Position numbers and translations under genes: made by a program
Assembly: GCF_946892675.1 (NCBI RefSeq)
Contig: NZ_CAMPOV010000001.1
Location: 2,206,033 to 2,270,032 of the forward strand
From: Arthrobacter sp. Marseille-P9274
Lineage (GTDB): Bacteria > Actinomycetota > Actinomycetes > Actinomycetales > Micrococcaceae
Length of the DNA stretch: 64,000 nt
Direction: 5' to 3'
The notes under the pieces: model-generated
Told to the model about the DNA's origin: nothing
What the model saw: the letters and a program-made list of their open reading frames with translations, nothing else
Databases searched by the model: none
In this document: positions 9,587 through 29,099 of the stretch, piece by piece
Numbering within the stretch: position 1 is the stretch's first letter
Layout of the letters: every line of letters starts with the position of its first letter

Positions 9587-9624
9587 GCCCGCAGGGCCCG
9601 GCCAAAGTGCCGGACCCCACGGGC
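9587..9624 (-). terminator. Strong hairpin between binding-protein and permease genes
   Basis: Arms 9587-9602 and 9609-9624 pair almost fully (GCCCG, GGG and CCGGC blocks) around a 6-nt loop. On the minus strand the hairpin follows the stop of the binding-protein gene (9633) and is followed by TTTTCC, fitting an intrinsic terminator or partial attenuator inside the operon. Confidence 0.65.
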
Positions 9625-9632
9625 CGCTCAGG

Positions 9633-11798: not shown

Positions 11799-13628
11799 TC
11801 AGCTCCCCGACCCGAGCAGCTGTTCCCTGAGCTCCCTGCGCTCGCGCTGCAGGACGGGGTCGGGCAGCGGAACCGCCGCCAGCAGCCGCTGCGTGTAGGC
11901 CTCCTGGGGATTGCGCAGGATCTCGTCGCGGGTTCCCTGCTCGACAATGTTGCCGTGCCGCATAACGCAGATCCGGTCCGCGAGCACGTCGATGACCGCC
12001 AGATCGTGGGTGACGAACAGGCAGGCGAAGCCCAGTTCCCGCTGCAGATCGCGGAACAGCTCCAGCACCTTGGCCTGCACGGAAACGTCCAGCGCCGAGG
12101 TCGGCTCGTCCGCGACCATCAGCTTGGGCTGCAGCGCCAATGCCCGGGCGATGCCGACACGCTGCTTCTGGCCACCGGAGAGCTCGTGCGGATACCGGTT
12201 CCGGTAGGCCCGCGGCAGCTCCACCTGATCCAGCAGGACCTCGATCTTCTTCTGCAGCGCTTCGCCCTTCGCCACTCCGGCAAGGTACATCGGCTCTCCG
12301 ATGCTCTCGCCGATCGGCAACCGCGGATTCAGAGACGACGACGGGTCCTGGAACACCATGCCCACGTTCCTGCGCAGCGACTGCAATTGCTTGCGGCTGG
12401 CCCCCGCAATCTCCTGGCCTGCCACCTTGAGCGAGCCTTCGGCCACCGGCAGCAGGCCCACGGCGGCCCGGCCGATTGTGGTCTTGCCCGAACCCGACTC
12501 GCCCACCAGTCCGACCACCTGGCCCGGGTAGATCACCAGGTCGGCTCCCTCCACTGCCCTAAAGGCCGGAACCCTGCCTTGCTTCGGGTAATCGATAGCA
12601 CCACCGGCCAACTCCAGCACCGGGTCACCGTGGACCGCTTCCTCCGCGGCGCGGGCCAGGGCGGCCTCGTTCTCTTCCTCGCGGCGCTTCATCTCGTCGT
12701 CGTCGACGATGTCCAAGGTGACGCCCGTTGCCGAGGCAAGGGCCGCAGTGACGTCCACCTCCGCTTCGCCGCGCTCATGGCTGGCGCCCAGCCTCGGCAC
12801 GGACGCCAGCAGCTGCCGGGTGTATTCGTGCCGCGGATTGCTGAAGATCTCCTCGGCCGTACCCGTTTCGACGATCCGGCCGTTCCGCATCACCGCGATT
12901 TTATCCGCCAGGTCGGCGACCACGCCCATGTCATGGGTGATGAGGACGATGGCGCTGTCCAGCTTGTTCCTCAGGCTGCGCATGAGGCCCAGGATTTCCG
13001 CCTGGACAGTAACGTCCAGTGCCGTGGTGGGTTCGTCAGCGATCAGCAGCTTGGGGTCGCAGGACAATGACTGCGCGATCATGGCCCGCTGGCGCTGTCC
13101 GCCGGAGAGCTGGTGCGGGTAGGACTTGAACGCCTTGGCGGGGTCCGGCAGTTCCACCAATTCCAGTAGCCGGAGGGCACGCTCGCGCGCTTCCTCCGGA
13201 GAAATGGCATTGTGCAGGCGGAGCGTCTCGACGATCTGGAAACCGATTGTGTACACGGGGTTCATCGCCGTCATCGGTTCCTGGAAAATGACGGCGACGT
13301 CGTTGCCACGGAGCCGGCGCAGCTTTGCCGGGCCGAGGCCCAGGATCTCCTGGCCGTTGAGTTTCACGCTTCCGCTCACGCGGCTGTTGGGCGGCAGGAG
13401 CCCCAGCAGGGCCATGGAACTGGCGCTCTTGCCCGAACCGGACTCCCCCACCAGCGCCAGCACCTCGCCGGCACGCACCTCATAGTTCAGGTCGATGGCC
13501 GCCGGGACCCATTCCTTGTCCACGCCGAAATCCACGCTGAGGTCGGTGACCTGCAGGACGGGCCTGCCGGGTTCGCCGGCAACATCCTCGGTCGGGGCGG
13601 GGATGACCGGATCGATCATTTCAGTCAT
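11799..13628 (-). CDS. Second peptide ABC importer, fused double ATPase
   Basis: A 609-residue fusion of two peptide-type ABC ATPases. Domain 1 has Walker A GESGSGKS (61-68), signature LSGGQRQR and LLIADEPTTALD. Domain 2 has GESGSGKT near 375, LSGGQKQR and MVADEPTSALD. An acidic linker (EMKRREEENEAALARAAEEA) joins them. The C-terminus carries the NPQEAYTQRLL extension. Unlike the first system, this gene is cut off from its permease genes by a plus-strand gene (13717-14337), so it needs its own promoter in the 88-bp gap before that gene. AGAAGGACG serves as a Shine-Dalgarno sequence. Confidence 0.92.
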   Translation of the reverse strand: MTEMIDPVIPAPTEDVAGEPGRPVLQVTDLSVDFGVDKEWVPAAIDLNYEVRAGEVLALVGESGSGKSASSMALLGLLPPNSRVSGSVKLNGQEILGLGPAKLRRLRGNDVAVIFQEPMTAMNPVYTIGFQIVETLRLHNAISPEEARERALRLLELVELPDPAKAFKSYPHQLSGGQRQRAMIAQSLSCDPKLLIADEPTTALDVTVQAEILGLMRSLRNKLDSAIVLITHDMGVVADLADKIAVMRNGRIVETGTAEEIFSNPRHEYTRQLLASVPRLGASHERGEAEVDVTAALASATGVTLDIVDDDEMKRREEENEAALARAAEEAVHGDPVLELAGGAIDYPKQGRVPAFRAVEGADLVIYPGQVVGLVGESGSGKTTIGRAAVGLLPVAEGSLKVAGQEIAGASRKQLQSLRRNVGMVFQDPSSSLNPRLPIGESIGEPMYLAGVAKGEALQKKIEVLLDQVELPRAYRNRYPHELSGGQKQRVGIARALALQPKLMVADEPTSALDVSVQAKVLELFRDLQRELGFACLFVTHDLAVIDVLADRICVMRHGNIVEQGTRDEILRNPQEAYTQRLLAAVPLPDPVLQRERRELREQLLGSGS

Positions 13629-13716
13629 GGTGCTTCGTCCTTCTAACGTTTTTCGGGAGTCCGACGGCGGCTGGTCCCGTTAGTGCCCTGGTGCCGGCAA
13701 CTGCAAGGATGGAGCC

Positions 13717-14337
13717 ATGCCCGCCCGCAACACCGGACCCGTTGTCCTCCGAGCCAGAAGCGCCCCCTGGCTGACCGGCATCGTATGGCTGATCGCGGCC
13801 GTCAGCGCGGGGTCCGCCCTGCTGACCCACGGCGGCACCGGCCTCCTGCAATCCTGGCCGCTCATGGCGGCGGCCTATGTGGCGTGGTGGCTGGCCTGGT
13901 TTCCCGCCGTCGTTATTTCCGACGACGGCGTCAGGCTTCGGAATCCGATCCGCACCATCGATGTGCCGTGGCACGCCCTCGTCACCGTCGATACCAAGTA
14001 CGCCTTGACCCTCGTGACAGCCTCGGGCCGCTATAGCGCCTGGTCCGCTCCGGCCCCCGGCCTGTTCGCGGTCCAGCGCGCGCAGCCAGACCACATACGG
14101 GGACTGCCCGAGACCACCTACGGCCCCGCCGGCTCGGTGAGGCCCGGAGACCTGGCCACTTCTGATTCCGGCACGGCCGCCTACCACGTCCGGCAGCGCT
14201 GGTCCGCGTTGCTCGCGTCCGGCGCCGTGGAACCGGGCATGGCCGAGGCCTCCCGGGCGCGCGTCAGCGTCAACTGGACAGTGCTCGCCGTGGGCGCCGC
14301 GCTGGTAGCCGCGGCCGTGTTGGCGATCGCGGCGTGA
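13717..14337 (+). CDS. PH-like domain membrane protein, function unknown
   Basis: A 206-residue protein with two N-terminal hydrophobic segments (about 18-38 and 45-65). A bacterial PH-like stretch follows (VISDDGVRLRNPIRTIDVPWHALVTVDTKY-type, about 66-110), and a C-terminal helix ends in VLAIAA. This resembles the bPH2/DUF2581-like membrane-anchored PH proteins of actinobacteria. AAGGATGGAG precedes the ATG. It lies on the strand opposite to the peptide transporter genes and separates their permease and ATPase genes. A role in transport is not shown. The family call is moderate; function is unknown. Confidence 0.7.
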   Translation: MPARNTGPVVLRARSAPWLTGIVWLIAAVSAGSALLTHGGTGLLQSWPLMAAAYVAWWLAWFPAVVISDDGVRLRNPIRTIDVPWHALVTVDTKYALTLVTASGRYSAWSAPAPGLFAVQRAQPDHIRGLPETTYGPAGSVRPGDLATSDSGTAAYHVRQRWSALLASGAVEPGMAEASRARVSVNWTVLAVGAALVAAAVLAIAA

Positions 14338-14371
14338 CCGTCCCGGCTTCGGCGCCGCGGGGAGCGTCATT

Positions 14372-15400
14372 TCACAGCTCCTTCGCCGGCCCCGCGGGGC
14401 CCGGCCGGCGGGCCACGACATCCCGTGCCCGCTTCGCGCTGAACTTCTTCTGGCGGGGATCGAACGCGTCACGCAGGCCATCTCCGATGAAGTTGATGCA
14501 AAGGCAGATGGCGACGATGAACATGCCCGGCCACCAGAACAGCCAGGGACGGGTCGAAAAGGCCTCCTGGTTCTGGCTAATCAGCAGGCCGAGCGACACA
14601 TCAGGCGCCTTGACGCCCATGCCGACGTAGGACAAGGAGGTCTCCAGCAGGATCGCCGAGGACATGCTGAGCGTCACGAAGACGATGATCACTCCGACAG
14701 CGTTGGGCAGGATGTGCCGGAAGATGATCCGGGTACTGGAGGCACCGGCTATGCGCGCCGCATCGACGAATTCCCGCTCGCGCAGGGAGAGGAACTCGGC
14801 GCGCACCAGCCGGGCCAGTCCCGTCCATACGACCAGCCCCACCATCAGTCCGAGGGCCAGGGGCTGCAGGTTGGACGCCACCACCCGGCTGGCCATCTGG
14901 CCCAGGACCGCTGCGAGGATGATCAGCGGGATGACGATCACGACGTCGGTCAGGCGCATCAGGACAGTGTCGACCCAGCCGCGGAAATAGCCGGCCGACG
15001 CCCCGATGACCACGCCGAACGCGCCGCCGACGATGCCAATGATGAACATGACGAGGACCGAGATCTGCACGCCCCGCATGGTCTGCGCGAACGTGTCCCG
15101 GCCCAGCCGGTCCTGCCCGAACGGGTGCTCGCCGAAGTTGAACGGAAACAACTGCAGCGTCGGACGCCCGCCATTGATCAGGTCATTGACTTCGTTGTGG
15201 GTGTACTTCCACCATCCAGGGATGCCCATGAATCCGCCGGCGGAGAACGCCAGAACCAGGATCAGGACGAAGATGACCAGGCTCGCGATCGCCGCAGCGT
15301 TTCCGATGAACCTCTTCCGGACGATCTGGCCCTGGCTTAAGCCCTGCTTTTCCGGGCCGGCACCTTGTATTTCCGGTGCCGAAGTTGTCGTCGTGGTCAT
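14372..15400 (-). CDS. Second peptide ABC importer permease (DppC type)
   Basis: A 342-residue permease. A Thr-rich start leads to the first helix (AAAIASLVIFVLILVLAFSAGGF) and a periplasmic loop with the HPFGQDRLGRDTFAQTMRG block that defines DppC/OppC proteins. Five more helices and the coupling loop (AARIAGASSTRIIFRHILPNAVG region) follow. The C-terminus has a basic tail (KKFSAKRARDVVARRPG). Its ATG overlaps the upstream permease stop by 4 nt. The downstream gene is the convergent PH-like gene, 34 nt away. Confidence 0.92.
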   Translation of the reverse strand: MTTTTTSAPEIQGAGPEKQGLSQGQIVRKRFIGNAAAIASLVIFVLILVLAFSAGGFMGIPGWWKYTHNEVNDLINGGRPTLQLFPFNFGEHPFGQDRLGRDTFAQTMRGVQISVLVMFIIGIVGGAFGVVIGASAGYFRGWVDTVLMRLTDVVIVIPLIILAAVLGQMASRVVASNLQPLALGLMVGLVVWTGLARLVRAEFLSLREREFVDAARIAGASSTRIIFRHILPNAVGVIIVFVTLSMSSAILLETSLSYVGMGVKAPDVSLGLLISQNQEAFSTRPWLFWWPGMFIVAICLCINFIGDGLRDAFDPRQKKFSAKRARDVVARRPGPAGPAKEL

Positions 15401-16938
15401 ACCTTAACCCTCACTCGCGGGTCCAGCGCGGAGTAGAGCAGGTCCGCGATCAAATTGAAGACGAGAGCCATGATGCCGGTCACGAGGAAGACACCCATGA
15501 CGGGATTCGGGTCCACGCGCAGCAGGGCCTCGATGAAGAGCTGCCCCATGCCGGCGAAAGCGAAGACGCGTTCGGTAATGACCGCGCCGCCGATCAGGCC
15601 GCCGATGTCGAAGGCCACGATCGTGGCAATGGGGATCAGCGCGTTCCGGAACGCATGGCGCATGACGACGGTCCGCTCCCCCAGGCCTTTGGCCCGCGCC
15701 GTCCGGATGTAGTCCATGTTCATGATTTCCAGCATCGACGAGCGTGCATACCGGCTGTAAGAGGCCAGCGAAATCAGCAGCAGGGCGATGGTCGGCAACA
15801 GCAGGTGCGTGAACGTGTCCAGCCCCTGCACCCAGTAGTCGCCCTGCAAATTGGGCGTTTCGGAGCCGATCGTGGCGATCGGGCGGCCGTTGATCCGTGA
15901 GTTGTCGAAGTAGGCCGGCCAGGCCTGCATGTAACGGTCCAGCAGGACCATCCCGGCAACCAGGACCGCCGTCATGACGGCGGCATTTATATTCTGCCGG
16001 CGGTCGTAGCCGCCCATCAGGTAGCCGATACCGATCCCCACCAGGACGGTGGCAATGGCCAGGAGCGCGATCATCAGCGTAGTGGCCTGCGCCAGGAGCG
16101 GCTGGAGCGGGAAGTACAAGACCAGCCCGACTGCCACCGCGGCCAGCGCGGAGTAGAGCGCCCTGCGGTTTTTCAGCCCCGCCGCGAGGGTTGTCGCGCC
16201 GAAGGCAATGGCGACGCCGGCGATCAGGATCACCGCGAGGCCGAGCCCTGGTGTGCTGAACCAGCGTGTCACGGACAATGCCCACAGGATGCCCGCAGCC
16301 AGGACGAATCCCGTGACCGCGGCCAGGAGCCGGCGTTTGACGCTGCCGCGCGCGCAGATATACCACAACAGCCCGCTGACCAAAGAGATCACGGCGATGG
16401 TGGCCGGCGGTATGTGGGGCTCGCGCAGGAAGTTGTTGAAGCCGATCGCCGCGTATTCCTTCAGGAGGACCGCGACCCAGAACACGGGCAGGGAGAAGAA
16501 GAGGAACGCCATGAAGGTCACCCCGTAATCCAGGGTGCTGTACTGCCGCAGTGCTGTCACGATGCCGAGGCACACCCCGATGACGACCGCCAGGATGGCT
16601 GCACCGGTCACCAGCAGGATGGTCATCCCCATCGCGCGGCCCAGTGCTTCGGTGACGGGCTGCCCGTTGATGGCGAAACCCAGGTCGCAGCGGCCCACGA
16701 AGGGCACCAGGCACTGGGCGGCTCCGCCGAGCCAGTGGAAATAGCGGAGAGGGGCAGGGACGTCCAGGTTCAGCAACTCGACGCGCTGCTGGATCAGTTG
16801 TTCTTTGTTCGGCTGGTTGCTTTCCCGTAGGTCGGCAAGTGGGTCACCCGACAGGGCCGTCAGCTGATACACCAGGAACGAAGCGCCTAGGAGAATAAGC
16901 ACGGCCGTGAAGAGCCGCCGCACGATGTAGGTCACCAT
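15397..16938 (-). CDS. Second peptide ABC importer permease (DppB type) with a ~200-residue membrane insertion
   Basis: A 513-residue DppB-type permease; the family is usually about 310-340 residues. The normal N-terminus (MVTYIVRRLFTAVLILLGAS) and the normal C-terminal half (SSMLEIMNMDYIRTARAKGL, then RNALIPIATIVAFDIGG) are intact. Between about residues 165 and 375 an extra hydrophobic stretch carries roughly six further helices (181-196, 203-222, 231-252, 262-280, 285-306, 317-336). Its SALDPRVRVKV end is typical. An even number of added helices would keep the topology. The reading frame is clean, so this is an in-frame insertion and not a fusion artefact. Confidence 0.9.
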   Translation of the reverse strand: MVTYIVRRLFTAVLILLGASFLVYQLTALSGDPLADLRESNQPNKEQLIQQRVELLNLDVPAPLRYFHWLGGAAQCLVPFVGRCDLGFAINGQPVTEALGRAMGMTILLVTGAAILAVVIGVCLGIVTALRQYSTLDYGVTFMAFLFFSLPVFWVAVLLKEYAAIGFNNFLREPHIPPATIAVISLVSGLLWYICARGSVKRRLLAAVTGFVLAAGILWALSVTRWFSTPGLGLAVILIAGVAIAFGATTLAAGLKNRRALYSALAAVAVGLVLYFPLQPLLAQATTLMIALLAIATVLVGIGIGYLMGGYDRRQNINAAVMTAVLVAGMVLLDRYMQAWPAYFDNSRINGRPIATIGSETPNLQGDYWVQGLDTFTHLLLPTIALLLISLASYSRYARSSMLEIMNMDYIRTARAKGLGERTVVMRHAFRNALIPIATIVAFDIGGLIGGAVITERVFAFAGMGQLFIEALLRVDPNPVMGVFLVTGIMALVFNLIADLLYSALDPRVRVKV

Positions 16939-16977
16939 GGTGTCGAAAGACCTCGATTTTCACTTCTGGAGAATGCC

Positions 16978-17016
16978 AAGGCGCCGGGACCGTCCTGCTC
17001 GTGGTCCCGGCGCCTT
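16978..17016 (-). terminator. Perfect 14-bp hairpin between binding-protein and permease genes
   Basis: Arms 16978-16991 and 17003-17016 (AAGGCGCCGGGACC and its complement), loop of 11. It follows the binding-protein stop (17048) on the minus strand and has only a short T/C run after it. Its position equals that of the hairpin in the first peptide operon, suggesting a shared way to make more binding protein than permease. Confidence 0.65.
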
Positions 17017-17047
17017 CGCTTAGTTCGCTAACAGAACGCCAGGGGTA

Positions 17048-18847
17048 CTACTCGCCCTTGACCTTCCAATCCCAGAAGTTCCAGAACACGCCGGTCTGGT
17101 TCGGCTGGTAGACGACGCCTTCGACCCGGTCGCTGTTGTAAGCGTCCAGTCCGACCGCCTGGAACAGCGGCAGTCCGTAGAAGGAGTCCCACACGATTTT
17201 GTCGATCTGGGTGATCAGCTTGTCCTGTTCGGCCGGTTCGATGGTGACCATCAGCTCGTCCATCAGCGCGTCGGCCTTCGGGTCGGAGAATCCGTTGTAG
17301 TTGGAGCCGCTTCCCGTCCGGAAGATCTGCGGCACGCCGGAGACGCCCACGCCCGAGTTGATCCAGCCGAAGATGGAGGCGTCGTAACCGCCCTTGCCAA
17401 GCGCAGCACCCCAGTCGGAGGCACCCAGACCGCCGTCGACGACCTTGAACCCGGCCTTCTCCGCAGACTCCTGGATCAGGGAGAACGCGTCGGCACGGTT
17501 CGGGTTGTCCTTGTTGTACATGATCCGGACCTCAGGAGTCTTGCCCGCCAGGAGCTTCTTGGCGCCGTCGATATCCGGTTCGGCGTAGGCCGAGGAGCCG
17601 TTGCCTTCCGCCGAGGGAGTGTACGCCTCCTGCGCGGGAACGAAGAACTGCGAGTTGAGCGGCGCGGCGTCCTCCTTGATCGGCTTGACGATGCGGTCAA
17701 CGATGGCCTGCCTGGGCACGGCCTTCATGAACGCCTCGCGGACGTCCGCATCCGCGAAGACGCCGCTGTAGTTGAGGTCGAGGTGGTCATAGGACAGCTG
17801 GTCATCGATATGGACCGTCACGCCGTCGATGGCATTGAGCAGTTCGACAGTATCCGCCGACGGCTGCGGGGCGATGATGTCCACTTCGCCGTTCTTGAGC
17901 GCCTGTACCTGGTCGGGTGCGGCACCGATGAACCGGATCGTCACCTCGTCGATGCTCGGCTTCTGGCCCCAGTTGTAGGAATCATTGCGAACCAGCGTGA
18001 TTGACTGGTCCGGCGTAACGCTGTCCACGATGAAGGGACCGCTGGAGAGGTAAAGCGAGGTGTCCCCCGGCAGCGACTTGCTGTCAAAGCCGGTATTCCA
18101 GAAATCTCCCACGGCCTTGAGCTCGGCATTGGGCTTGGCCGGCTTCTCCGCGTCCCCGCGCTCCAGGCCGTTGATCAGATCGATCAAAGCCTGCTCGTCG
18201 GCAAGGCCTGCCTTCTCGGCAACAACATGCGCCGGCATGCCGATGCCTCCGTCCTGGAGACCTCCGAAGGCGATTTCCCAGTCGGCAAAGGGCTTGGAGT
18301 AGGTCAGGGTGATCGAGCGGCCGTCGTCACCGATCTCGGGAATCCCGGTCAGCCCAAGGCCGCTGGTGTCGCCCGCGTAGTCGAAGTAGTTAGTGCCCGA
18401 GGTGACTTCGCCTTCCTCGTTGCTCTTGGCATCGTTGGCATAGCCGGATTCGGCTACCCAATTCAGCAGCAGGTCTCCAGCGTCGACCGGTTCCCCGTCC
18501 GACCAGGTGACGCCCTCCTTGACCGTGTACTTCACGACCAGCGGGTCGTCGGAGACCTTTTCGTAGGTACCGAATTCTTCGTTCCGGACGACGTTGAGCT
18601 CATTGTCGATGTGGTAGAAGCCGCCCCGTGTCATGTAGGCGACCTTGCCGTTGACGTCGACGTTGCCAGCAGCGGTGTCGGAGTTGAACGAACTGAACGC
18701 GTTGACTTCCGCAACGCTGATGGTTCCGCCGGTCGCGCTGGCTTCCCCCGTAGATTCGGCGCCGCCGCCTGCCGATGCGCAGGCGCTCAGTGCCAGAGCC
18801 GCGACTGCTGCAACTCCGATTGCCTTGGAATAACGTCCGAAACGCAT
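17048..18847 (-). CDS. Second peptide ABC importer substrate-binding lipoprotein
   Basis: A 599-residue family 5 solute-binding protein. The start is the ATG at 18847 (MRFGRYSKAIG), preceded by GGAGGCGGA. Upstream in-frame codons to 19036 are not used, because the lipoprotein signal begins here. Signal residues 1-20 are followed by LSAC with Cys23, then ASAGGG. Family 5 blocks include FYHIDNELNVV near 75, VVKYTVKEGVTWSDGEPVDAGD near 95-116 and FYGLPLFQAVGLDAY near 560. The first six residues resemble those of the first binding protein (MRFARTSR versus MRFGRYSK), suggesting the two systems are paralogous. The substrate is not known. Confidence 0.92.
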   Translation of the reverse strand: MRFGRYSKAIGVAAVAALALSACASAGGGAESTGEASATGGTISVAEVNAFSSFNSDTAAGNVDVNGKVAYMTRGGFYHIDNELNVVRNEEFGTYEKVSDDPLVVKYTVKEGVTWSDGEPVDAGDLLLNWVAESGYANDAKSNEEGEVTSGTNYFDYAGDTSGLGLTGIPEIGDDGRSITLTYSKPFADWEIAFGGLQDGGIGMPAHVVAEKAGLADEQALIDLINGLERGDAEKPAKPNAELKAVGDFWNTGFDSKSLPGDTSLYLSSGPFIVDSVTPDQSITLVRNDSYNWGQKPSIDEVTIRFIGAAPDQVQALKNGEVDIIAPQPSADTVELLNAIDGVTVHIDDQLSYDHLDLNYSGVFADADVREAFMKAVPRQAIVDRIVKPIKEDAAPLNSQFFVPAQEAYTPSAEGNGSSAYAEPDIDGAKKLLAGKTPEVRIMYNKDNPNRADAFSLIQESAEKAGFKVVDGGLGASDWGAALGKGGYDASIFGWINSGVGVSGVPQIFRTGSGSNYNGFSDPKADALMDELMVTIEPAEQDKLITQIDKIVWDSFYGLPLFQAVGLDAYNSDRVEGVVYQPNQTGVFWNFWDWKVKGE

Positions 18848-18899
18848 TCCGCCTCCTTGTATCTCATGATGAAGATGCCTCTGCGAGGTCACCGGAGAA

Positions 18900-18950
18900 G
18901 GGCCACTGGCGTGGTTGAAACGATTGAGACCCCCTCCACGCCAGTGGCCC
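18900..18950 (-). promoter_or_regulatory. Perfect 15-bp inverted repeat in the binding-protein leader
   Basis: Arms 18900-18914 and 18936-18950 (GGGCCACTGGCGTGG and its complement) with a 21-nt spacer, 53 nt before the ATG. It could be an mRNA stem-loop in the 5' leader or an operator; the sequence alone does not decide. Confidence 0.5.
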
Positions 18951-19120
18951 GCCTCACATGGATAAGAGAGTAGACCGAGGCCGCAGAATTGGGTATAAAA
19001 ATTTTGCTTCACAACCGACTTGTTATCGAGATGCAACCAAGACGACGGACCGCGTCACGGTCTCAAACATGTACTTCACAAAGCGTCGCACCCCGGAAAC
19101 CTCCGCGAAATACGCGGGAA

Positions 19121-19360: not shown

Positions 19361-21148
19361 TCAGGCGATCGTCCGACGGGTCGCGTCCAGCCGCCTGGTC
19401 CAGCCGCGGCTGTCGAGGTACTCCAGTAGCGGGATCGCGACCCGTCGAGTGGTGTCCAATGCCTTGCGCGCCTCACTGGTCGTGAACGGCTGCGGCAAGG
19501 CGGCGAGCTCCCGCATGGCCAGGGCAGGTGCCCGCGGCAGCAGGACGACGCCATCGCCGAGCCGCAGCAGACGGCCGCTGCGCTCGGCTGCCGCCAGTTC
19601 GCGGGCTCCCAGGCCGAGGGCATGCAGATCGTGGGCTTCGGGGGCAGCGAACGGCGCGACCTTCAGCCGGTTCTCCAGCGCTCCGATCCCGTACTCTGCC
19701 GCGCCGAGGTCCTGGCGCTGCCCTGGGAGATTGATGTAGCCCGCACGGTGCTCCAGTCCAGCTTCCCGGACAACCGCTTCCAGCAGCGCGCCGCGGGCCG
19801 GTCCGATCAGGTCCTTGGCGGCTCCGAGGGACAGCCCGGCCGCCAACGGGTCCTGCTCGCCGAGTTGCTCCACGGCGCTGCGCAGCCGCCGCCGCCACGC
19901 GTCGAAGACGGGTTCGTGCACCCACCACTCGCCAAAGGCCCTTACCCCGTCGGGCACCCGGCGCAGCCCGGCAACACCCATCCGGCGCAATTGTTCGACT
20001 CGGACGGCACCCCGGCGGGCCACTTCCGTCAGCGCGTCCCCGCCGGGTGGCATGGTGGCCAGGACGCCGGCCCGCCGGCTGCCATCGCCGCGGCGGTCGA
20101 GCGCGGGCGGTTCGACGTCGAGGATCTGTGCCCCGGCCAAGACCGATCGGCTACCGGTCGCCCGCAGCACCAAACGGTCGCCCAGTTCCAGGGGTAACCG
20201 ACGGTCGAGGGTCAGGCGGGCGTGGTCCGCACCGAACGGACGCATGCGACCGGGCACGGCGGCGGTGCCGATGTGGACGAGCAATTGCCCTGGTGCGTCT
20301 GCGAAAGAGGCACCCATGGTCCGCCGGACGTCGACGGTGTCCACCACCGGCCAGCTATCCCCGGTGACGAGAACGTCGCCGCGGTGGATGGCGTCAGCGG
20401 ATAGGCCGGACCGGAGGTTGACGGCGACGCGGCTGGTGGGGCCAACGGAGCCGACGGCCACATTGCAGCTGTGCAGGGCCCGCACCGCCACTGGTCTGGC
20501 GCCGTCGTGGCCGATCAGCAGCAAACGGTCGCCCTGGGCGAGCGTGCCAGCCGTCAAGGTTCCGGTCACGACCGTTCCGGCGCCACTGATGGTGAACGAC
20601 CGATCGATCCACAACCGCACGCGCGCGTCTGGCTTTGCTTCGGGCAAAGACGTCAGCATGTCATCCATCGCGCTGCGCAGCTCGTCGAGTCCGGTCCCGT
20701 CGACCGCGGACACGGCGACGGCCGGCGCGTCGCGCAGACCGGTGCCCCTGAGCTCGGCCCGCACCCGCGCGAGTACCTCGTCTGCGCCGTCGGGTGCGCG
20801 GTCACTGCGGGTCAGCACCACGATCCCGTGGCTGATCCCCAAGGCTGCGATGGCGTCGCGATGGTCGCTGGACTGGGCCTGCCAGCCTTCATCGGCGGCG
20901 ACGACGAAGCACACCGCAGGCGCCGGCCCGAGCCCGGCCAGCATGTTGCCAAGGAATCGTTCGTGCCCCGGGACGTCCACGAACGCCACATCCCTGCCCG
21001 ATGCCAGCCGGGTCCATGCGAAGCCCAGGTCAATCGTCAGCCCGCGGCGGCGCTCCTCGGCCCACCGGTCGGGCTCCATCCCGGTCAGCGCGCGCACCAA
21101 GGTGCTCTTGCCGTGATCGACATGTCCGGCGGTGGCCACCACGAACAT
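19361..21148 (-). CDS. selB: Selenocysteine-specific elongation factor SelB
   Basis: A 595-residue translational GTPase that carries Sec-tRNA(Sec) to the ribosome at UGA codons marked by a SECIS element. G1 is GHVDHGKS (8-15), the switch region has GLTIDLGFAW, G3 is DVPGHE, and G4 reads TRSD where NKxD is usual in EF-Tu (SelB proteins often deviate). EF-Tu-like domains II/III follow. The C-terminal ~200 residues contain the winged-helix repeats that bind the SECIS RNA (for example TSEARKALDTTRRVAIPLLEYLDSRGWTRR). The ATG lies 2 nt after the selA stop, with GGAGGC upstream, so the two are co-translated. The neighbouring fdh gene is its only visible client. Confidence 0.96.
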   Translation of the reverse strand: MFVVATAGHVDHGKSTLVRALTGMEPDRWAEERRRGLTIDLGFAWTRLASGRDVAFVDVPGHERFLGNMLAGLGPAPAVCFVVAADEGWQAQSSDHRDAIAALGISHGIVVLTRSDRAPDGADEVLARVRAELRGTGLRDAPAVAVSAVDGTGLDELRSAMDDMLTSLPEAKPDARVRLWIDRSFTISGAGTVVTGTLTAGTLAQGDRLLLIGHDGARPVAVRALHSCNVAVGSVGPTSRVAVNLRSGLSADAIHRGDVLVTGDSWPVVDTVDVRRTMGASFADAPGQLLVHIGTAAVPGRMRPFGADHARLTLDRRLPLELGDRLVLRATGSRSVLAGAQILDVEPPALDRRGDGSRRAGVLATMPPGGDALTEVARRGAVRVEQLRRMGVAGLRRVPDGVRAFGEWWVHEPVFDAWRRRLRSAVEQLGEQDPLAAGLSLGAAKDLIGPARGALLEAVVREAGLEHRAGYINLPGQRQDLGAAEYGIGALENRLKVAPFAAPEAHDLHALGLGARELAAAERSGRLLRLGDGVVLLPRAPALAMRELAALPQPFTTSEARKALDTTRRVAIPLLEYLDSRGWTRRLDATRRTIA

Positions 21149-21150
21149 CT

Positions 21151-22482
21151 TCAGCTGCCTCCGGTCCCGAGTGGTTCGCCGATGCGCGCCAGGGCTGCCC
21201 GCACGGCATCGGCCAGCCGTTCATCGTCATCCTCCGGGATGCACCGCAGATCCAGCAGGCAGGCACCGCCGTGGACCCGGGGCAGCACCGCCGGGTCGCC
21301 AGTGCGCAGCAACCGGGCCACGCCCTCGGGGAGCCGGATCGCCCAGCCGGGCAGCGGCACGCCCGGCGCTCCCCCGCCACCGACCCTGCCATCGTGCTCG
21401 ACAAAGGCGCAGCCGACAGCCTCCGCGAGCGCTTCGGTGCGCTCTCGGAGCCGCACCGGGTCGGCGTGCAGGGCGGCTGTCACCGGCGGCGCCTCCCCGG
21501 AGACGGTCGCTTCCAGCGCGGCCAGAGCCAGTTTGTCCGCCCGCAGCGCCCGAGCCATCGGATGGCGCGCCAGCCTAGCGATGACTTCGGCGCGCCCGAG
21601 CAGAAGCCCGGCCTGGGGCCCGCCCAGGAGTTTGTCACCGCTGGCGATCACGACGTCGGCACCGGACATCAACGCACTGGCGACATCGGGCTCGTCAGGC
21701 AGTACGGGGTCCGGGGCGAGCAGACCGCTGCCGAGGTCCACCACCAAGGGAACACGGTGTTCACCGGCCAGCGACCGGAGTTGGCTGATGCCGACGCCTG
21801 AGGAGAAGCCGGTGACCCGGAAGTTGCTGGGGTGGACCTTGAGCAGGCAGCCGGTCTGCTCCCCCATGGCGGACTCGTAATCGTGCAGGTGCGTCCGGTT
21901 GGTGGTGCCCACTTCCCGCAACCGGGCTCCGGTCGATTCGATCAGTTCGGGAAGCCTGAAGCCCGCGCCGATTTCGACAAGCTCCCCGCGGCTGATGACT
22001 ACCTCGCCGGTGCCGGCGAGGACGGTGGTGGCTAGCAGCAGGGCGGCCGCCCCGTTGTTCACTACCAGCGCGTCCTCGGCGGCGGGACATGCGCGCATCA
22101 ATGCCTGGCGCGCTCCGGCCCCGCGCCGGGCGCGCGTCCCCGACGTCAGGTCCATTTCGACGTCGACATAACCAGCCGCCGTGAGCAAAGCCCTTCGAGC
22201 GGATTCCGACAGCGGGGCGCGTCCCAGGTTCGTGTGCACGATGACGCCGGTGGCGTTGAGCACCGGCCGCAATGATGTGGCCGCGCGGGACGATACCGCG
22301 GCCAGGACCTCCGCTTCGACTTCCTCGGGCGCAAGCTGGCCGGAGCGGGCCTGGTCCTGGATCCCCCGGACGATGGAACGAATTATATCGTCGCCGAGGC
22401 GTCCCCGGGCGTGCCCAAGCTCCGCGTGCGCGAGCAATCGATCGGTACGCGGAATAAGCCTTCGCGGGTCGTCTTGGGCCAC
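21151..22482 (-). CDS. selA: L-seryl-tRNA(Sec) selenium transferase
   Basis: A 443-residue PLP enzyme that converts Ser-tRNA(Sec) to Sec-tRNA(Sec) with selenophosphate. Family blocks: DPRRLIPRTDRLLA at the N-terminus, NATGVIVHTNLGRAPLS (77-92), NNGAAALLLA (142-151) and SGDKLLGGPQAG with the PLP lysine at 284. The GTG at 22482 is the start: it has an AAGGAGGAG Shine-Dalgarno sequence immediately upstream and gives the usual N-terminus. The frame is open back to 22644, but those codons overlap the tRNA-Sec gene. It lies directly downstream of selC and 2 nt upstream of selB. Confidence 0.96.
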   Translation of the reverse strand: MAQDDPRRLIPRTDRLLAHAELGHARGRLGDDIIRSIVRGIQDQARSGQLAPEEVEAEVLAAVSSRAATSLRPVLNATGVIVHTNLGRAPLSESARRALLTAAGYVDVEMDLTSGTRARRGAGARQALMRACPAAEDALVVNNGAAALLLATTVLAGTGEVVISRGELVEIGAGFRLPELIESTGARLREVGTTNRTHLHDYESAMGEQTGCLLKVHPSNFRVTGFSSGVGISQLRSLAGEHRVPLVVDLGSGLLAPDPVLPDEPDVASALMSGADVVIASGDKLLGGPQAGLLLGRAEVIARLARHPMARALRADKLALAALEATVSGEAPPVTAALHADPVRLRERTEALAEAVGCAFVEHDGRVGGGGAPGVPLPGWAIRLPEGVARLLRTGDPAVLPRVHGGACLLDLRCIPEDDDERLADAVRAALARIGEPLGTGGS

Positions 22483-22505
22483 GCTCCTCCTTCCGCTGCG
22501 GCAGT

Positions 22506-22600
22506 TGGCGGAGGCGGACGGGAATCGAACCCGCCAGGCCGAGCTACTCGGTCTCACCGGTTTTGAAGACCGGGGGGCCCACCAGGACCCGGACGCCTCC
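22506..22600 (-). tRNA. selC: Selenocysteine tRNA (anticodon UCA)
   Basis: Reads GGAGGCG at the 5' end and CGCCTCC-G-CCA at the 3' end, so the CCA is encoded. The anticodon arm is CCGGTCTTCAAAACCGG, giving anticodon TCA that reads UGA. A long variable arm (ACCGAG-TAG-CTCGGC) and a T-arm with GGGTTCGATTCCC are present. The 95-nt length including CCA is that of tRNA-Sec rather than a normal tRNA. The acceptor pairs seven bases clearly; the eighth (T with C) is a mismatch in my folding. It sits 23 nt upstream of the selA start, on the same strand. Confidence 0.96.
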
Positions 22601-22607
22601 AAGAGGA

Positions 22608-22613
22608 TGCTAA
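22608..22613 (-). promoter_or_regulatory. Candidate -10 box for selC
   Basis: On the minus strand TAGCAT lies 7 nt before the first base of the tRNA. It shares the 42-bp gap with the divergent selD promoter candidate. No clear -35. Confidence 0.4.
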
Positions 22614-22629
22614 CACTGCCCTGCTCTCC

Positions 22630-22635
22630 TAGACT
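22630..22635 (+). promoter_or_regulatory. Candidate -10 box for selD
   Basis: TAGACT, 7 nt before ATG 22643, suggests a leaderless mRNA. The same hexamer and spacing occur at the Nudix gene (40783). Confidence 0.45.
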
Positions 22636-22642
22636 GAGGGCC

Positions 22643-23656
22643 ATGGACGCGATGATGGCCCTAGACCAGGAACATTCCGGAGCCGTCCGGCTTACCGGCT
22701 ATGCGCATGGCGGAGGGTGCGCCTGCAAGATTCCTCCCGGGGAGCTCGAGGACGTTGTCCGTGGCCTGGTCGGCCAGACCCACCCCGACGTTCTGGTGGG
22801 ACTCGACGGCGGCGACGATGCCTCCGCGGTGCTGGTCGGCGACGACCTTGCGGTGCTCTCGACCGCGGATTTCTTCACTCCGGTGGTCGATGACGCCTAC
22901 GACTGGGGCCGGATCGCGGCAGCGAACGCCATATCCGACATCTATGCCATGGGCGGGCGTCCCGTCAGCGCCATCAATCTTGTGGGCTGGCCGCGGGACA
23001 GGTTGCCGATGGAGTTGCTGGCCGAGGTTCTGCGCGGCGGGCTGGCGGTTGCCGCCGAAGCCGGCTGCCCGGTGACTGGGGGACACTCAGTCGATGACCC
23101 GGAACCCAAATACGGAATGGCGGTGACCGGCGTCGCCCGCCCCGGTTCGCTGCTTCGCAACGATGCCGCGCGGCCCGGGCTGCCGCTCACGCTGACCAAG
23201 CCGATCGGCCTGGGCTTGTTGAACAATCGCCACAAGCAAACCGGCGAGGTATTCGCCGAAGCCATTGCGACGATGGTGCAGTTGAACCGAGAGGCTGCCG
23301 AGGCGGCCGTGCAGGGCGGCCTCCGAGCCGCGACGGATGTCACCGGGTTCGGCCTGCTGGGCCATCTCTACAAGATGTGCCGGGCCTCCGGCGTGGGTGC
23401 GGTCATCGACCGAAACGCGGTGCCGCTGGTCTCCGGCGCCCGGGAAGCGCTGCGGGACGGCTTCATCTCCGGCGGAACGCGGCGCAATCTGGAGTGGGTG
23501 CGTCCCCACCTGCGGCCGGGGCCCGGGGTCTCCGAGGAGGACCTGCTGATGCTCGCCGATGCCCAGACCTCCGGCGGCCTGCTCGTGGTGGGCGAACTGC
23601 CCGGTTACCCCGTCGTCGGATACACGACTGGAGGCCAGGGAATCGAGGTGCGCTAG
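22643..23656 (+). CDS. selD: Selenide, water dikinase (selenophosphate synthetase)
   Basis: A 337-residue ATP-dependent enzyme making selenophosphate, the selenium donor for SelA. The active-site block reads GGGCACKIPP: Cys26 occupies the position that is Cys17 in E. coli SelD, and Lys29 the catalytic lysine. It is therefore the Cys form, with no selenocysteine of its own. The ATP/Mg-binding Asp-rich block DGGDDASAVL and the AANAISDIYAMGGRP segment follow; GGHSVDDPEPKYG and SGGTRRN are also present. The start at 22643 is set by TAGACT 7 nt upstream; ATGs at 22652 and 22655 are alternatives. It is divergent from selC-selA-selB, and its stop faces the fdh operon end. Confidence 0.96.
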   Translation: MDAMMALDQEHSGAVRLTGYAHGGGCACKIPPGELEDVVRGLVGQTHPDVLVGLDGGDDASAVLVGDDLAVLSTADFFTPVVDDAYDWGRIAAANAISDIYAMGGRPVSAINLVGWPRDRLPMELLAEVLRGGLAVAAEAGCPVTGGHSVDDPEPKYGMAVTGVARPGSLLRNDAARPGLPLTLTKPIGLGLLNNRHKQTGEVFAEAIATMVQLNREAAEAAVQGGLRAATDVTGFGLLGHLYKMCRASGVGAVIDRNAVPLVSGAREALRDGFISGGTRRNLEWVRPHLRPGPGVSEEDLLMLADAQTSGGLLVVGELPGYPVVGYTTGGQGIEVR

Positions 23657-23690
23657 CGCGTCGCGCCTGTTCCCACCGCTCGCGGGCGCC

Positions 23691-24773
23691 TCATTCGGTG
23701 GTCGTGATCGAATCGTGGATGACGCCTGCTTCGCGGCGCGCAGCGAGCCGTTTCTTCTGCGGTTCGATCGTGTAGCGGGGATTTTCTGTAGAGCGAATGC
23801 CGGCGCGCAGGATCCCGAATCTCGTGAGGGCCGAGGCGCCGAGCAACAACAGCCCCGACATTGCCGCCGTGGGCCGGTACCGGCCGCCGACGAGCGTGCC
23901 CACACCACCCGCGACGGCCAGCCGCTCACTCCAGGCCAGCATCCGCCCCGGACCGCCGGAGTGCAGGGGCTCGGCCGCGACGGGGTCCATGTTCTTCTCC
24001 ATGGACCGAGTCGCGATCAGCTCGCCCGTGACTCCGAGCACCGCGAGTGCACGTGCTGGCCCGGCCTCCTTGACCGGGGTCGTGATCATGGCCAGGCCCG
24101 CCGCGGCGAGGCTGGCAGAACTGACGAAGACGAAGGGCAGATCCTCCCGTGCGGCGTTCCAGGTCGGATTCGCGGTGTCCGACAGCAGGACCGCGGTGTA
24201 GGCGGACAGCGGGGCCGCGAACACGGCAGCTTCCATCCCCGCCGGCCCCTCGAGTCCGCGCAGCAGCCGGCGCAGCGGCCCAAGCGGGATTCGCGAGCCG
24301 GTCATCCGGTCGATTTCGGAAACGGCCGAGACTCCGGCACCGGCGCTGAAGGCCGTCAGAATCCACGAGCCCAGGCTCATCGGCGATGTGGGCTTGATGG
24401 TACGGAGCATGTTGAGGAACCGCTCGGGGCGGCCCAGGTCGGCCACCAGTGCCGCGCCTCCCACCCCGATGGCGGCGAGCGCTGCCAACCGGCTGTTGCG
24501 GCAAAGTATCGGCCTGCCGGTTATCTGCCCGCCGGCTCCGAGCAGTGCCGAGCCGCCGGCCACTCCCCCCAGGAAGAGGTAGAGGGCGATCGGGTCTCCC
24601 CACGGCGGCGGCTTGACGACCGGTCGGCCGTAATAGGACGTGAACTCCGCCTCGGGAACCACGGGCGCTTCGGCGCGGCCCTCGCCCGTACCGGCGCGGC
24701 GGCGCTTGCCGCCCCGCTTGCGCCGGCGCGGCGGTTCGGGCGGACGGTAGTCATCGAAGTCGGAGACCGTCAA
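23691..24773 (-). CDS. Formate dehydrogenase membrane subunit, NrfD/PsrC family
   Basis: A 360-residue membrane anchor of the NrfD type, expected to pass electrons from the iron-sulfur subunit to the quinone pool without haem. A 50-residue basic and proline-rich cytoplasmic tail is followed by YYGRPVVKPPPWGDPIALYLFLGGVAGGSALL, a hallmark opening of NrfD proteins. About eight helices follow, with the DLGRPERFLNMLRTIKPTSPMSLGSW block (about 112-137) also typical. Its ATG overlaps the FeS-subunit stop by 4 nt. This membrane subunit replaces the cytochrome b (FdnI/FdoI) of enterobacterial enzymes. Confidence 0.9.
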   Translation of the reverse strand: MTVSDFDDYRPPEPPRRRKRGGKRRRAGTGEGRAEAPVVPEAEFTSYYGRPVVKPPPWGDPIALYLFLGGVAGGSALLGAGGQITGRPILCRNSRLAALAAIGVGGAALVADLGRPERFLNMLRTIKPTSPMSLGSWILTAFSAGAGVSAVSEIDRMTGSRIPLGPLRRLLRGLEGPAGMEAAVFAAPLSAYTAVLLSDTANPTWNAAREDLPFVFVSSASLAAAGLAMITTPVKEAGPARALAVLGVTGELIATRSMEKNMDPVAAEPLHSGGPGRMLAWSERLAVAGGVGTLVGGRYRPTAAMSGLLLLGASALTRFGILRAGIRSTENPRYTIEPQKKRLAARREAGVIHDSITTTE

Positions 24774-25765
24774 GCCCGGCCTCCCGCCAGGAAGGCCCCG
24801 GTGGCGGCGGCGAGCATGCCGGCGGCGGCAAGGCCCGCCCGCTTGAACATACGCGGGAGGTCCGCCGTGGGCACGCGGGGATCCGGCGGGAGCCCGTACA
24901 CCTCCGGTTCGTCCAGCAGCAGGAAGACGGAACCGGTGCCGCCGACGCCGTCGGAATCATTGGCTCCGTAGAGCCGCGCCTCCGTCAGCCCCTGCGCATG
25001 CAGTTCGGCCACCCGTTCCTTCGCCGTGGCCACCATGTCCTCGCGCTCGCCGTATTTGATGGACGTCGTCGGGCAGGCCTGCGCGCACGCGGGCGTCTGA
25101 CCGTCAACGATCCGGTCATAGCACAAGGTGCACTTCTGCGCGACGCCGGCGTTAGGCGTTGGGGCTTGTTCCCCCGGCGTGAAGTCGCGCTCGGTCTTCG
25201 GCCCTGCCGTGCCGTCGCGGCGCCGCTCGATCACCCCGAACGGGCACCCCGCCACGCAGGTTCCGCAGCCGTTGCACACATCGTCCTGCACGACGACGGT
25301 TCCGTGCTCCGTGCGGAACAAGGCACCCGTGGGACAGACGTCGAGGCATCCGGCGTTGGTGCAGTGCTTGCACACGTCGGAGGACATCAGCCACCGGAAG
25401 TCGGGGGTGTCAGGCGGCGTCGTGTCCGCCCCGGCCAGGTTCACCGCGCGGTCTTGCCCCGGCGGGCCAAGGCCGGGCATGCCAAGACTGACAAGAGCCC
25501 GCCCGGATTCGCGGGCGCGGCCGATCTGCTCCCGGTCCTGCTCAATGAACGCGACGTGCCGCCAGGTGTCTGCTCCCAGGGACCCGGTGTTGTCGTAGGA
25601 AGACCCGAGCAGCTCGTATTCCGAGTCTTGGGGGTTGCGGTTCCATTCCTTGCAAGCAACCTCGCAGGCCTTGCATCCGATGCAGATCGAGGTGTCCGTG
25701 AAGAAACCCTTCCGAGGATGCCCGGTGTGCCTAGCGTGGTCCGGAGATTCGGTCAGCTGGTTCAT
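24770..25765 (-). CDS. Formate dehydrogenase iron-sulfur subunit
   Basis: A 331-residue ferredoxin-like electron transfer subunit with four 4Fe-4S sites. Cluster motifs in order: CIGCKACEVAC (28-38), CKHCTNAGCLDVCP, CNGCGTCVAGCP and CTLCYDRIVDGQTPACAQACP. The C-terminus ends in a hydrophobic helix (AAAGMLAAATGAFLAGG) that could anchor it to the membrane, as in FdnH. The ATG follows the catalytic-subunit stop with no gap (TGA-ATG); its GGAGGAG Shine-Dalgarno sequence is inside the end of that gene. It links the Mo/W subunit to the NrfD-type anchor. Confidence 0.94.
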   Translation of the reverse strand: MNQLTESPDHARHTGHPRKGFFTDTSICIGCKACEVACKEWNRNPQDSEYELLGSSYDNTGSLGADTWRHVAFIEQDREQIGRARESGRALVSLGMPGLGPPGQDRAVNLAGADTTPPDTPDFRWLMSSDVCKHCTNAGCLDVCPTGALFRTEHGTVVVQDDVCNGCGTCVAGCPFGVIERRRDGTAGPKTERDFTPGEQAPTPNAGVAQKCTLCYDRIVDGQTPACAQACPTTSIKYGEREDMVATAKERVAELHAQGLTEARLYGANDSDGVGGTGSVFLLLDEPEVYGLPPDPRVPTADLPRMFKRAGLAAAGMLAAATGAFLAGGRA

Positions 25766-28700
25766 TCAGTTCTCCTCCTTCGTCTCGTGGCCCGAGGCTC
25801 GGCCGGGACTGGTGGGCTTCTGGTTGCCGGTCTCCGGTGTCACCCCCGCACGGGTCTGGTAATCGGCGATCAGCGATAGCAGCGCGGCGCCACGCGGCCG
25901 GCGCCCCGGGACGATGGCGCACGACCCGACCTTGGACTCCTGGATCTGCACGTTCGGATCGAGTGTCACCCCGAGCAGGTCGTTGGCCGCGTCGCCGGAA
26001 ACCACAGCGTCCTGCCCCACGCCCCAGTGGTAGGGCAACCCGATCTGGTGGAAGGTCCGCCCGCTCACGACCAGCGGCTTCACCCGTTCGGTTACCAGCA
26101 CTCTGGCCTCGATCGCCGAACGCGGCGAGATGATGGTGGCCCATCCGTAGGGCTCCAGTCCCCGTTCGGCTGCCAGTTCCGGGGAAACCTCGCAGAACAT
26201 TTCCGGTTGGAGCTCGGAGAGGTAGGGCAGCCATCGGCTCATCCCGCCGGCCGTGTGATGCTCGGTCAGGCGGTACGTGGTGAACACGTAGGGGTAGACC
26301 TCGGAACCGGGCTCGCCTGCGCTGGGCGCGCTGAGGTTGTCCGCGCGCGGATAGGTCAGCCGGGCAGGATTCTGCTGCTGCCGGTAGAGCGGGTTGGCGA
26401 TCGGAGACTCCTGGGGCTCGTAGTGCGTCGGCAGGGGTCCGTCCACCATGCCCTTCGGCGCGAAAAGCCATCCCTTGCCGTCCGATTGCATGATGAACGG
26501 ATCGTCGCCCGCGAGCGCCGCGGCTCCGCCGGCCTCGGGATCCGGTCGAGTCCCCGGCGCGCGGTCCACGGGGAAGTCCGGCACGTCCTGTCCGGTCCAC
26601 CGGCTCTGCTCCGAGTCCCACCAGACGTACTTCTTGCGTTCGCTCCAAGGTTTGCCGTCGGGGTCCGCCGATGCCCGGTTATAGAGAATTCTCCTGTTCG
26701 CGGGCCAGACCCAGCCCCATTCGGGGGCGACCGGGCCTTGTTCCTGCTGCGGTTTCCGATCGGCGGCATGGTTGATACCGTCCGCATAGACTCCGGTGTA
26801 GATCCAGCAGCCGCCCGACGTCGACCCGTCGGCGCGCATCTCGGTGTAGGACGAGAGTGGTTTGCCGGCCTGCGGCCCCGTCAGATGCACGCCGTTGATC
26901 TCCGCGAGCACCGCCTCGGCGTCGGGCTCGCCGTGTTCGTTCATGGGATAGTCCCACGTCAGGTCCAGCAGCGGCCGGTCCCGCTCATCGGTCGAGTCCG
27001 CCAGTTTCGCCCGGATGCGCTTGCCCAGTTCGTAGAAGAACTCCAGTTCGCTCTGGCAATCGCCCGGCGGCAGGACAGCCTGGTGGCGCCATTGGAGCAT
27101 CCGCTGCGTCTGCGTGAAGGATCCGGCCTTCTCCACGTGAGTGGCTGCCGGCATGAAGAAGACTTCAGTGGCGATATCTTCGGTCGCGAGTTCGCCCGAG
27201 GCGATCTCCGGGCCGTCCTTCCACCACGTAGCCGATTCGATCAGGCTCAGGTCCCGCACGACCAGCCATTTCAAATGGGACATGGCCAGCCGCTGCATGC
27301 GCCCGTGGGCCGACCCGACGGCGGGGTTCTGGCCGAAGAGGAAGTAGCCCTCGACGTCGTCGTCAAGCATTTTCATGACCGTCTCGTACGTGCCGTGGGG
27401 GCCGTTGATCCGGGGCAGGTAGCGGTAGCCCCATTCCGAATCCTCGTTGGCCGCGTCGCCCCACCAGGCCTTGAGCAGGCTGACCGTGTAGGTGTCGGCG
27501 GCCGCCCAGTATCCCTTCTGGGTGGGCGAGGCGATGCCTTCCAGGTATTGCTCCAGGGTCTCCATTTCGGCCTTGGGCATCGGGAGGTAGCCCGGCAGCA
27601 GGTTGAACAGGGTTGGAATGTCGGTGGAGCCTTGGATGCTGGCGTGGCCGCGCAGCGCCATGATCCCCCCGCCGGGGCGTCCCACGTTGCCCAGCAGCAA
27701 TTGCAGGATCGCCGCGGTCCGGATGAACTGAGCGCCCAGGGTGTGCTGCGTCCATCCGACGGCGTACGCGAAGCACGTGGTCCGGTCCCTTCCGGAGTTC
27801 TCCGTGACGGCCCGGGCCAGATAGTCGAAATCCTCGAGGGAAATGCCGCAGGCCTCGCGGACCATCTCGGGGGTGTAGCGCGCATAGTGCCGCTTGAGGA
27901 TCTGGAACACGGTCCGCGGGTGCTCCAGCGTGGGGTCTTGTTCGAATTGAGGGTTTGCCAGCGTCGGGCCCCCGCTGCCGTATTGCTGGCCGGCCGCCCG
28001 CGCCGCGGTGTCGGCGCCGTGCTCGTGCCCGCCGGGTTCTTCCGCGCCGCGCTTCCGCTCATAGGCCCAGGAAGACAGGTCGTACTGCCCGGTCGCAGGG
28101 TCGAATCCGGAGAACAGCCCGTCGAGGTCCTCAGTGTCACGGAAGTCTTCGCCGACCAGCGTCGCCGCGTTGGTATAGGAGAGCACATACTCCTTGAACC
28201 ACAGCTCGTTGCTGATCACATGGTTGATCAGGGCGCCAAGCAGCACGACGTCCGATCCGGCGCGGATGGGCACATGCTTGTCGGCTACCGCGCTGGTGCG
28301 GGTGAACCGCGGGTCCACATGGATGACCCTTGCTCCCCGAGCCTTGGCCTCCGTCACCCACTGGTAGCCCACGGGGTGGCATTCGGCCATGTTGGAGCCC
28401 TGGATAACGATGCAGTCGGCATTTGCCATGTCTTGGAGCGATTGTGTGGCGCCTCCCCGCCCAAACGAGGTTCCCAAACTGGGAACCGTGGCGGAGTGTC
28501 AAATGCGGGCCTGGTTCTCCAGCTGGATGGCCCCTGCGGCGGTGAAGAGCTTCTTGATCAGGTAGTTCTCTTCATTGTCCAGCGTGGCCCCGCCCAGACC
28601 GGCAATGCCCATGGTGCGGCGCAGCGGCCGGCCCTGCTCATCGTTCTGCTGCCAGTTGTTCCGGCGTGCCTCGAGGAATCTGTCGGCCACCATCTCGATG

Positions 28701-29065
28701 GCGGTGTCCAGGTCCAGCTGCTGCCAGTCCTTGGCGTGGGGTGCCCGATAGAGCACCTTTGTCTGCCTGCCGGGCGCGTTGACCAGTTGCTCGCTGGCCG
28801 ATCCTTTGGGGCAGAGCCTCCCCCGGGAAATCGGCGAATCGGGGTCCCCTTCGATCTGGACGACCTTTTCGTCCTTGACGAAGACACGCTGGCCGCATCC
28901 GACGGCGCAGTAGGGGCACACGCTTTGGACCACTCGGTCCGCAGTTGACGTCCGCGGCATAATTCCACGGGTCTTCGGCGATGTCACGGCTTCGCCGCGG
29001 CCGAGTGGATCACCCGAGCCGAATTGCCGGACAACCGGCCATCCTAAGAAGCTGAACCGCGACAT
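25766..29065 (-). CDS. Formate dehydrogenase catalytic subunit, selenoprotein (Sec at residue 189)
   Basis: A 1099-residue molybdopterin/tungstopterin enzyme that oxidises formate to CO2. The 4Fe-4S cysteines are 50, 53, 57 and 85 (CPYCAVGC, RLCPKGSASEQL). The frame meets UGA at 28499-28501 in ENQARI-U-HSATVPSLG, exactly where E. coli FdnG has selenocysteine (QARVUHGPTV), and continues without break for 910 codons through SNMAECHPVGYQW, VIHVDPRFTRTSA and the C-terminal molybdopterin-dinucleotide domain (HHTAGGMSRWLP, TIISPRSAIEA). A SECIS-like hairpin starts 11 nt after the UGA. A simple gene caller would split it into two. The ATG at 29065 gives the usual actinobacterial N-terminus and has TATGGT 6 nt and TTGTCG further upstream, suggesting a leaderless mRNA. 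Confidence 0.96.
28457..28494 (-). promoter_or_regulatory. Bacterial SECIS-like stem-loop after the UGA codon
   Basis: On the mRNA, GGTTCCCA-GTT-TGGGAACC forms a perfect 8-bp stem (28480-28487 with 28469-28476). The 3-nt loop begins with G, 19 nt after the UGA. CCGCC (28490-28494) can pair with GGCGG (28457-28461) as a lower stem. A G at the start of the apical loop and this distance fit bacterial SECIS elements bound by SelB. Confidence 0.8.
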
Positions 29066-29071
29066 GGGGCC

Positions 29072-29099
29072 ACCATAGCCCACCACCCCTCCCCGACAA
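29072..29099 (-). promoter_or_regulatory. Candidate sigma-70-type promoter for the fdh operon
   Basis: Minus strand: TTGTCG (29094-29099), 16-nt spacer, TATGGT (29072-29077), then 6 nt to the ATG. This is the best two-part promoter seen in the window and predicts a leaderless transcript. Confidence 0.55.

Follow-up and report, generated by a model that had tools for sequence, protein, structure and literature searches.

The window, by which we mean the whole 64,000-nucleotide stretch analysed from Arthrobacter sp. Marseille-P9274, contains the gene for a formate dehydrogenase (FDH) alpha subunit (fdhA), genes for a 4Fe-4S beta subunit and a membrane subunit, and a set of sel genes for selenocysteine (Sec) insertion (Table 1). 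Translation of the minus strand of window:25766-29065 showed exactly two TGA codons, one at residue 189 (28499-28501) and one as the terminator, with no TAA and no TAG. This confirmed an earlier sequence-only reading of this DNA, in which the frame from 29065 to 25766 was described as interrupted by one UGA only. The same reading had called for annotation as one 1099-residue selenoprotein in place of two fragments, and the profile searches agree on one full-length protein. With the TGA read as Sec, the product matched NF041513 (formate_DH_Act) at full length across the TGA, from residue 6 to 1071, with 1949.1 bits (cut-off 1400), and it also belongs to TIGR01553 (920.4 bits, cut-off 814.2). 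A relative with Cys at the site exceeded the NF041513 cut-off as well (2016.5 bits), so this family is no test for Sec.

Table 1. Features of the fdh-sel locus (positions in the window; strand; basis of the assignment)
Feature	Position	Strand	Evidence
fdhA/fdnG, formate dehydrogenase alpha subunit, 1099 residues with predicted Sec189	25766..29065	-	translation, NF041513, TIGR01553, PDB relatives
UGA codon for predicted Sec189	28499..28501	-	TGA at site in 109/109 other loci read
Putative SECIS apical hairpin, 8 bp, loop GUU	28469..28487	-	positions 15-33 from U of UGA
SECIS_3 (RF01989) sub-threshold match	28446..28504	-	24.4 bits, gathering 63, E 0.002 over 251 bases
fdhB, 4Fe-4S beta subunit	24770..25765	-	TIGR01582 FDH-beta best match, 172.5 bits, cut-off 334.7 not reached
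fdhC, NrfD-type membrane subunit	23691..24773	-	PF03916, 66 bits
selD, selenophosphate synthetase, Cys form	22661..23656	+	TIGR00476, 381 bits
selC, tRNA-Sec, anticodon TCA	22510..22600	-	RF01852, 76.1 bits; ARAGORN
selA, selenocysteine synthase	about 21151..22461	-	TIGR00474, 412.7 bits from residue 62 of longest ORF
selB, Sec-specific elongation factor	19361..21148	-	TIGR00475, 280 bits, cut-off 242.25

The start of fdhA at 29065 agrees with NF041513, since residue 6 of the product falls on position 3 of the model. Among 13 relatives viewed, the start codon was ATG in 11 and GTG in one, and the remaining one had its ATG one codon earlier. Six nucleotides upstream of the fdhA ATG lies TATGGT (29072-29077), a possible -10 box for a leaderless transcript; the same place held TATGGT in eight of these 13 relatives, TAGGGT in two, and TATGCT in two. 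The molybdopterin domain (PF00384) spans residues 150-586 of the product. Structural relatives include PDB 1h0h, which we take to be the D. gigas enzyme, and 1kqf, presumably E. coli FDH-N; residue 189 aligned to X, a non-standard residue, in 1h0h. Among named relatives, Arthrobacter mangrovi is the nearest, with an FDH that is 95% identical. E. coli FdnG has a twin-arginine pair, unlike the product here, where none was visible in the first 45 residues.

Residue 189 sits in the context QARI-U-HS. We fetched and translated fdnG of E. coli K-12, which reads QARV-stop-HGP with the stop at residue 196, and the claim that the UGA occupies the Sec site of FdnG therefore stands. We then read the aligned site in related loci. 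The search for relatives kept the best 80 of 590 matches; from 118 loci in all, eight were other genes without alignment over the site and one was the window's own gene, which left 109. The codon was TGA in all 109, from several genera, within a sample chosen for resemblance to the FDH of the window (73.7-95.5% identity) that leaves remote FDHs unsampled. Some of these loci are the same genome drawn from two collections, and 98 relatives were distinct in codon sequence. Together with the TGC described below for 10 of 10 paralogues and the UGA of fdnG, this aligns the in-frame UGA with the Sec/Cys site of its relatives.

The codons that follow the TGA carry a constraint beyond that on the protein. 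Across 584 fourfold-degenerate positions in 99 distinct sequences, identity averaged 0.51. The seven codons 191-197 scored 0.921, the highest synonymous score among 659 seven-codon segments with at least four usable positions. All nine top-scoring segments start at codons 187-195, and the next, at codon 861 and away from the hairpin, scored 0.719. Codon 194 was GTT in 97 of the 99 sequences and codon 195 was CCC in 99 of 99.

A bacterial selenoprotein gene needs a hairpin directly 3' of the UGA, with a conserved U17 and a GU in the loop, and each of these features is present here. The TGA is followed by 11 nt and then by GGTTCCCA-GTT-TGGGAACC, which bears out the perfect 8-bp hairpin with a GTT loop that had first been noticed at this spacing; its register is that of E. 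coli fdhF and fdnG, both of which have U17, G23, and U24 at the same positions. U17 and G23-U24 were found in 111 of 111 rows (109 from other loci and two from the window's own gene). Folding of 40 nt gave a minimum free energy of -13 kcal/mol and a shuffle z-score of -2.0, and the z-score was -2.5 for 50 nt, -1.6 for 60 nt, and -0.5 for 100 nt. We also considered a hairpin arising by chance, counting perfect 8-bp hairpins that begin 8-14 nt after a codon with a loop of 3-6 nt. The two strands of the window hold 1354 TGA trinucleotides, and only the one at the fdhA site has such a hairpin after it; of 1084 fdhA codons, three do. A chance hairpin is rejected by this rarity among TGAs and codons and by the synonymous constraint, which peaks on the hairpin.

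In 64 distinct sequences, 98.6% of the helix cells were paired, versus at most 70.9% when the helix was slid along the alignment. Changes on both sides of a pair (compensatory changes) were confined to two pairs and four cells, and three of the eight pairs never vary; a helix slid by -1 column had 23 cells changed on both sides versus the four in the helix itself. No Rfam SECIS family matched over its threshold, and the hairpin is not filed under SECIS_3 because the score is far below gathering. A covariance model built here (R1) gave 26 bits for E. coli fdnG and 15-28 bits, at the same place, for all 10 Cys paralogues, with fdhF absent among its matches; since fdnG and the Cys paralogues score alike, R1 does not discriminate at that distance. 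Searched against the whole genome, it returned one strong match (79 bits, the fdhA site) and four at E 6.7-9.6, and among the 150 of 7478 first-look candidates that were scored no second SECIS of the R1 type was seen, in a search that would miss selenoproteins with a different SECIS.

U17 faces A or G in 62 of the 64 distinct sequences. The corresponding nucleotide is bulged in the E. coli fdhF hairpin. It is conceivable, if rather unlikely, that SelB of this clade recognises a paired or wobble U17 within an 8-bp stem instead of a bulge.

Downstream of fdhA, a 4Fe-4S beta subunit and a membrane subunit are encoded in the same operon, the arrangement of an FDH-N-like respiratory complex, with fdhB scoring below the FDH-beta cut-off. 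FdhD is encoded elsewhere in the genome. The genes selA, selB, selC, and selD all lie within 10 kb, and the assertion that a full sel set adjoins fdhA held in the profile and tRNA searches. Convergent to fdhC, selD has an approximate start (its profile match covers about 22688-23590), and its N-terminus reads GGGCACK, with Cys and not Sec in the motif. A candidate gene on the minus strand at 22661-23689 had no family match and was discarded, selD being on the opposite strand. For selA we infer a start at 22461 because the longest ORF, from 22644, overruns selC. SelB contains a SelB-wing_3 domain (58 bits). This arrangement is shared: all 56 loci above 23 kb in length had fdhB, fdhC, selD, and selB near fdhA, and 55 of them had selA there, counting matches from 80 bits in loci that had been picked for fdhA (best 80 of 590), with shorter loci left out. 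A group of Mycobacterium loci has the sel genes on the opposite flank of fdhA and in the reverse direction.

In the 295 family genomes analysed, the TGA gene and SelB were nearly always found together. Of these genomes, 79 contained an FDH match at E 1e-100: 73 with the TGA gene, five with only a gene without a stop, and one (G128) with only a C-terminal part reported. SelB over the cut-off was listed for 69 genomes (the tally gave 70), and 68 of these 69 carry the TGA gene, the remaining one being G128. Five genomes with the TGA gene were outside this SelB list; G280 has an intact SelB, G150, G233, and G167 have fragments of it, and the G029 assembly had neither SelB nor tRNA-Sec over threshold, its FDH gene lying 104 bases from a contig end. 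The assemblies of G150 and G167 had no tRNA-Sec over threshold. Nine genomes without the TGA gene (four of the same genus and five with only the Cys form) were rechecked, and none had SelB or tRNA-Sec over the cut-off; their best SelB-profile matches, at 82 bits or less, appear to be EF-Tu-like. The distribution of the TGA gene is patchy, at six of 10 genomes in the genus and 73 of 295 in the family, a pattern consistent with the fdh-sel block (19361-29065) having been gained and lost.

Full-length copies of the FDH alpha gene without the stop, 62-65% identical, occur in at least 12 genomes of the family, a lower bound because scoring was limited to the top two candidates in each genome. We fetched 10 of these 12 paralogues, and all 10 have TGC at the Sec site; GU at hairpin positions 23-24 was found in one of them. 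In seven of these 12 genomes the TGA gene is present too, so the Sec and Cys forms can coexist in one genome. This provides a natural comparison between the Sec and Cys forms of the same enzyme in one bacterial family. A homologue with Cys or a sense codon in the same strain, which the sequence-only reading had named as evidence against Sec, was not found in the genome studied here: the sole other match aligning over the site (E 1e-3) has Cys, shares 26% identity across residues 50-299, and probably represents a nitrate-reductase-like enzyme.

Several other readings of the interrupted frame were weighed against Sec insertion. A pseudogene or sequencing error, in which a gene that formerly had Cys now shows a nonsense mutation, whether genuine or false, would account for one stop splitting the frame. 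It would leave unexplained a frame that is open apart from the TGA, a TGA kept at the site in every other locus read from several genera, and the strongest synonymous constraint of the gene in the codons just after it. We rejected this reading on the conserved TGA and consider it extremely improbable. About equally improbable is the production of two proteins, an N-terminal fragment of 188 residues made by termination and a C-terminal piece made by re-initiation. Termination at UGA does compete in part with Sec insertion in known systems, and the ORF list offers TTG at 28477 as the next in-frame start. The molybdopterin domain would be split by such an arrangement, however, and the second piece would leave mostly unused the 11 codons directly behind the UGA, which are the most constrained.

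Readthrough of the UGA by other means, through general suppression or insertion of Cys or Trp and not through SelB and a SECIS, is only slightly less improbable than these. The inserted residue is not readable from the sequence alone, which leaves such readthrough some room. Against it stand the complete sel set adjoining fdhA, the co-occurrence of the TGA gene with SelB over the 295 genomes, and a hairpin whose U17, G23, and U24 fall in the same register as in E. coli.

We therefore favour, with a probability of roughly 0.98, the reading of fdhA as the alpha subunit of a molybdopterin FDH in which Sec189 would be decoded by the sel machinery and the hairpin. Sequence analysis shows the reading frame, the site, the hairpin, the conservation, the sel genes, and the operon, and known biology suggests the decoding, the metal ligand at residue 189, and the activity of the enzyme as follows. 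SelD would supply selenophosphate, with which SelA would convert Ser-tRNA-Sec (selC) to Sec-tRNA-Sec. SelB with GTP would bring the Sec-tRNA-Sec to the ribosome, and its C-terminal winged-helix part would bind the hairpin that begins 11 nt past the UGA, which would thereby be read as Sec. In the fdhA product, Sec at residue 189 would be a metal ligand, very probably placing selenium at the active site of the formate-oxidising enzyme. The full-length alpha subunit, the 4Fe-4S beta subunit, and the NrfD-type membrane subunit would together form a respiratory FDH. This resembles E. coli FdnG and FdhF in the context of the UGA and in the register of the three conserved hairpin nucleotides, but differs in the hairpin sequence, with the stem of the window pairing over 8 bp, and in the membrane subunit, which is NrfD-type here (PF03916) and a cytochrome b in E. 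coli FDH.

Selenocysteine FDHs encoded with sel genes have already been described in Corynebacterium and Actinomycetospora, and the locus here is an ordinary member of that system. The published account of Corynebacterium aurimucosum ATCC 700975 describes an fdnG with an internal UGA in an fdnG-fdxH-sel cluster with selABD and selC (PMC2830990); this is another genus, and the likeness is one of description. For Actinomycetospora chiangmaiensis DSM 45062, also another genus and compared by description, the report describes Sec FDHs whose SECIS elements were found with bSECISearch, and an FDH1 cluster in which a Sec membrane FDH alpha subunit of 1078 residues is accompanied by beta and gamma subunits and by SelA and SelB, with selD listed outside the cluster (PMC7176365). 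According to that report, the FdhA1 alpha subunit was found in the proteome and formate removal was selenium-dependent, an effect that is not assigned to FDH1 alone because the organism has three Sec FDH systems (PMC7176365). Within Arthrobacter, a survey records the Sec trait in A. crystallopoietes BAB-32 and lists it as a recent horizontal acquisition from Microlunatus (PMC5029168). The survey states that FDH alpha is the only selenoprotein gene in most of its donor and recipient organisms, close to the sel genes, and places FDH alpha at the top of its table of bacterial selenoprotein families (PMC5029168). The fdhA case leaves knowledge of selenocysteine decoding unchanged; its use is in helping to avoid the annotation of one selenoprotein as two fragments.

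Beyond the fdh-sel block, a 723-aa ORF on the plus strand (9540-11711) had no Pfam match at E 0.001 and may be no gene, because a 542-aa minus-strand ORF overlaps it. Genes for an ABC transporter of the oligopeptide/nickel type (11799-19036) lie downstream of selB and are probably unrelated to fdh-sel, since the solute-binding gene was in the flank of four of the 56 related loci longer than 23 kb.
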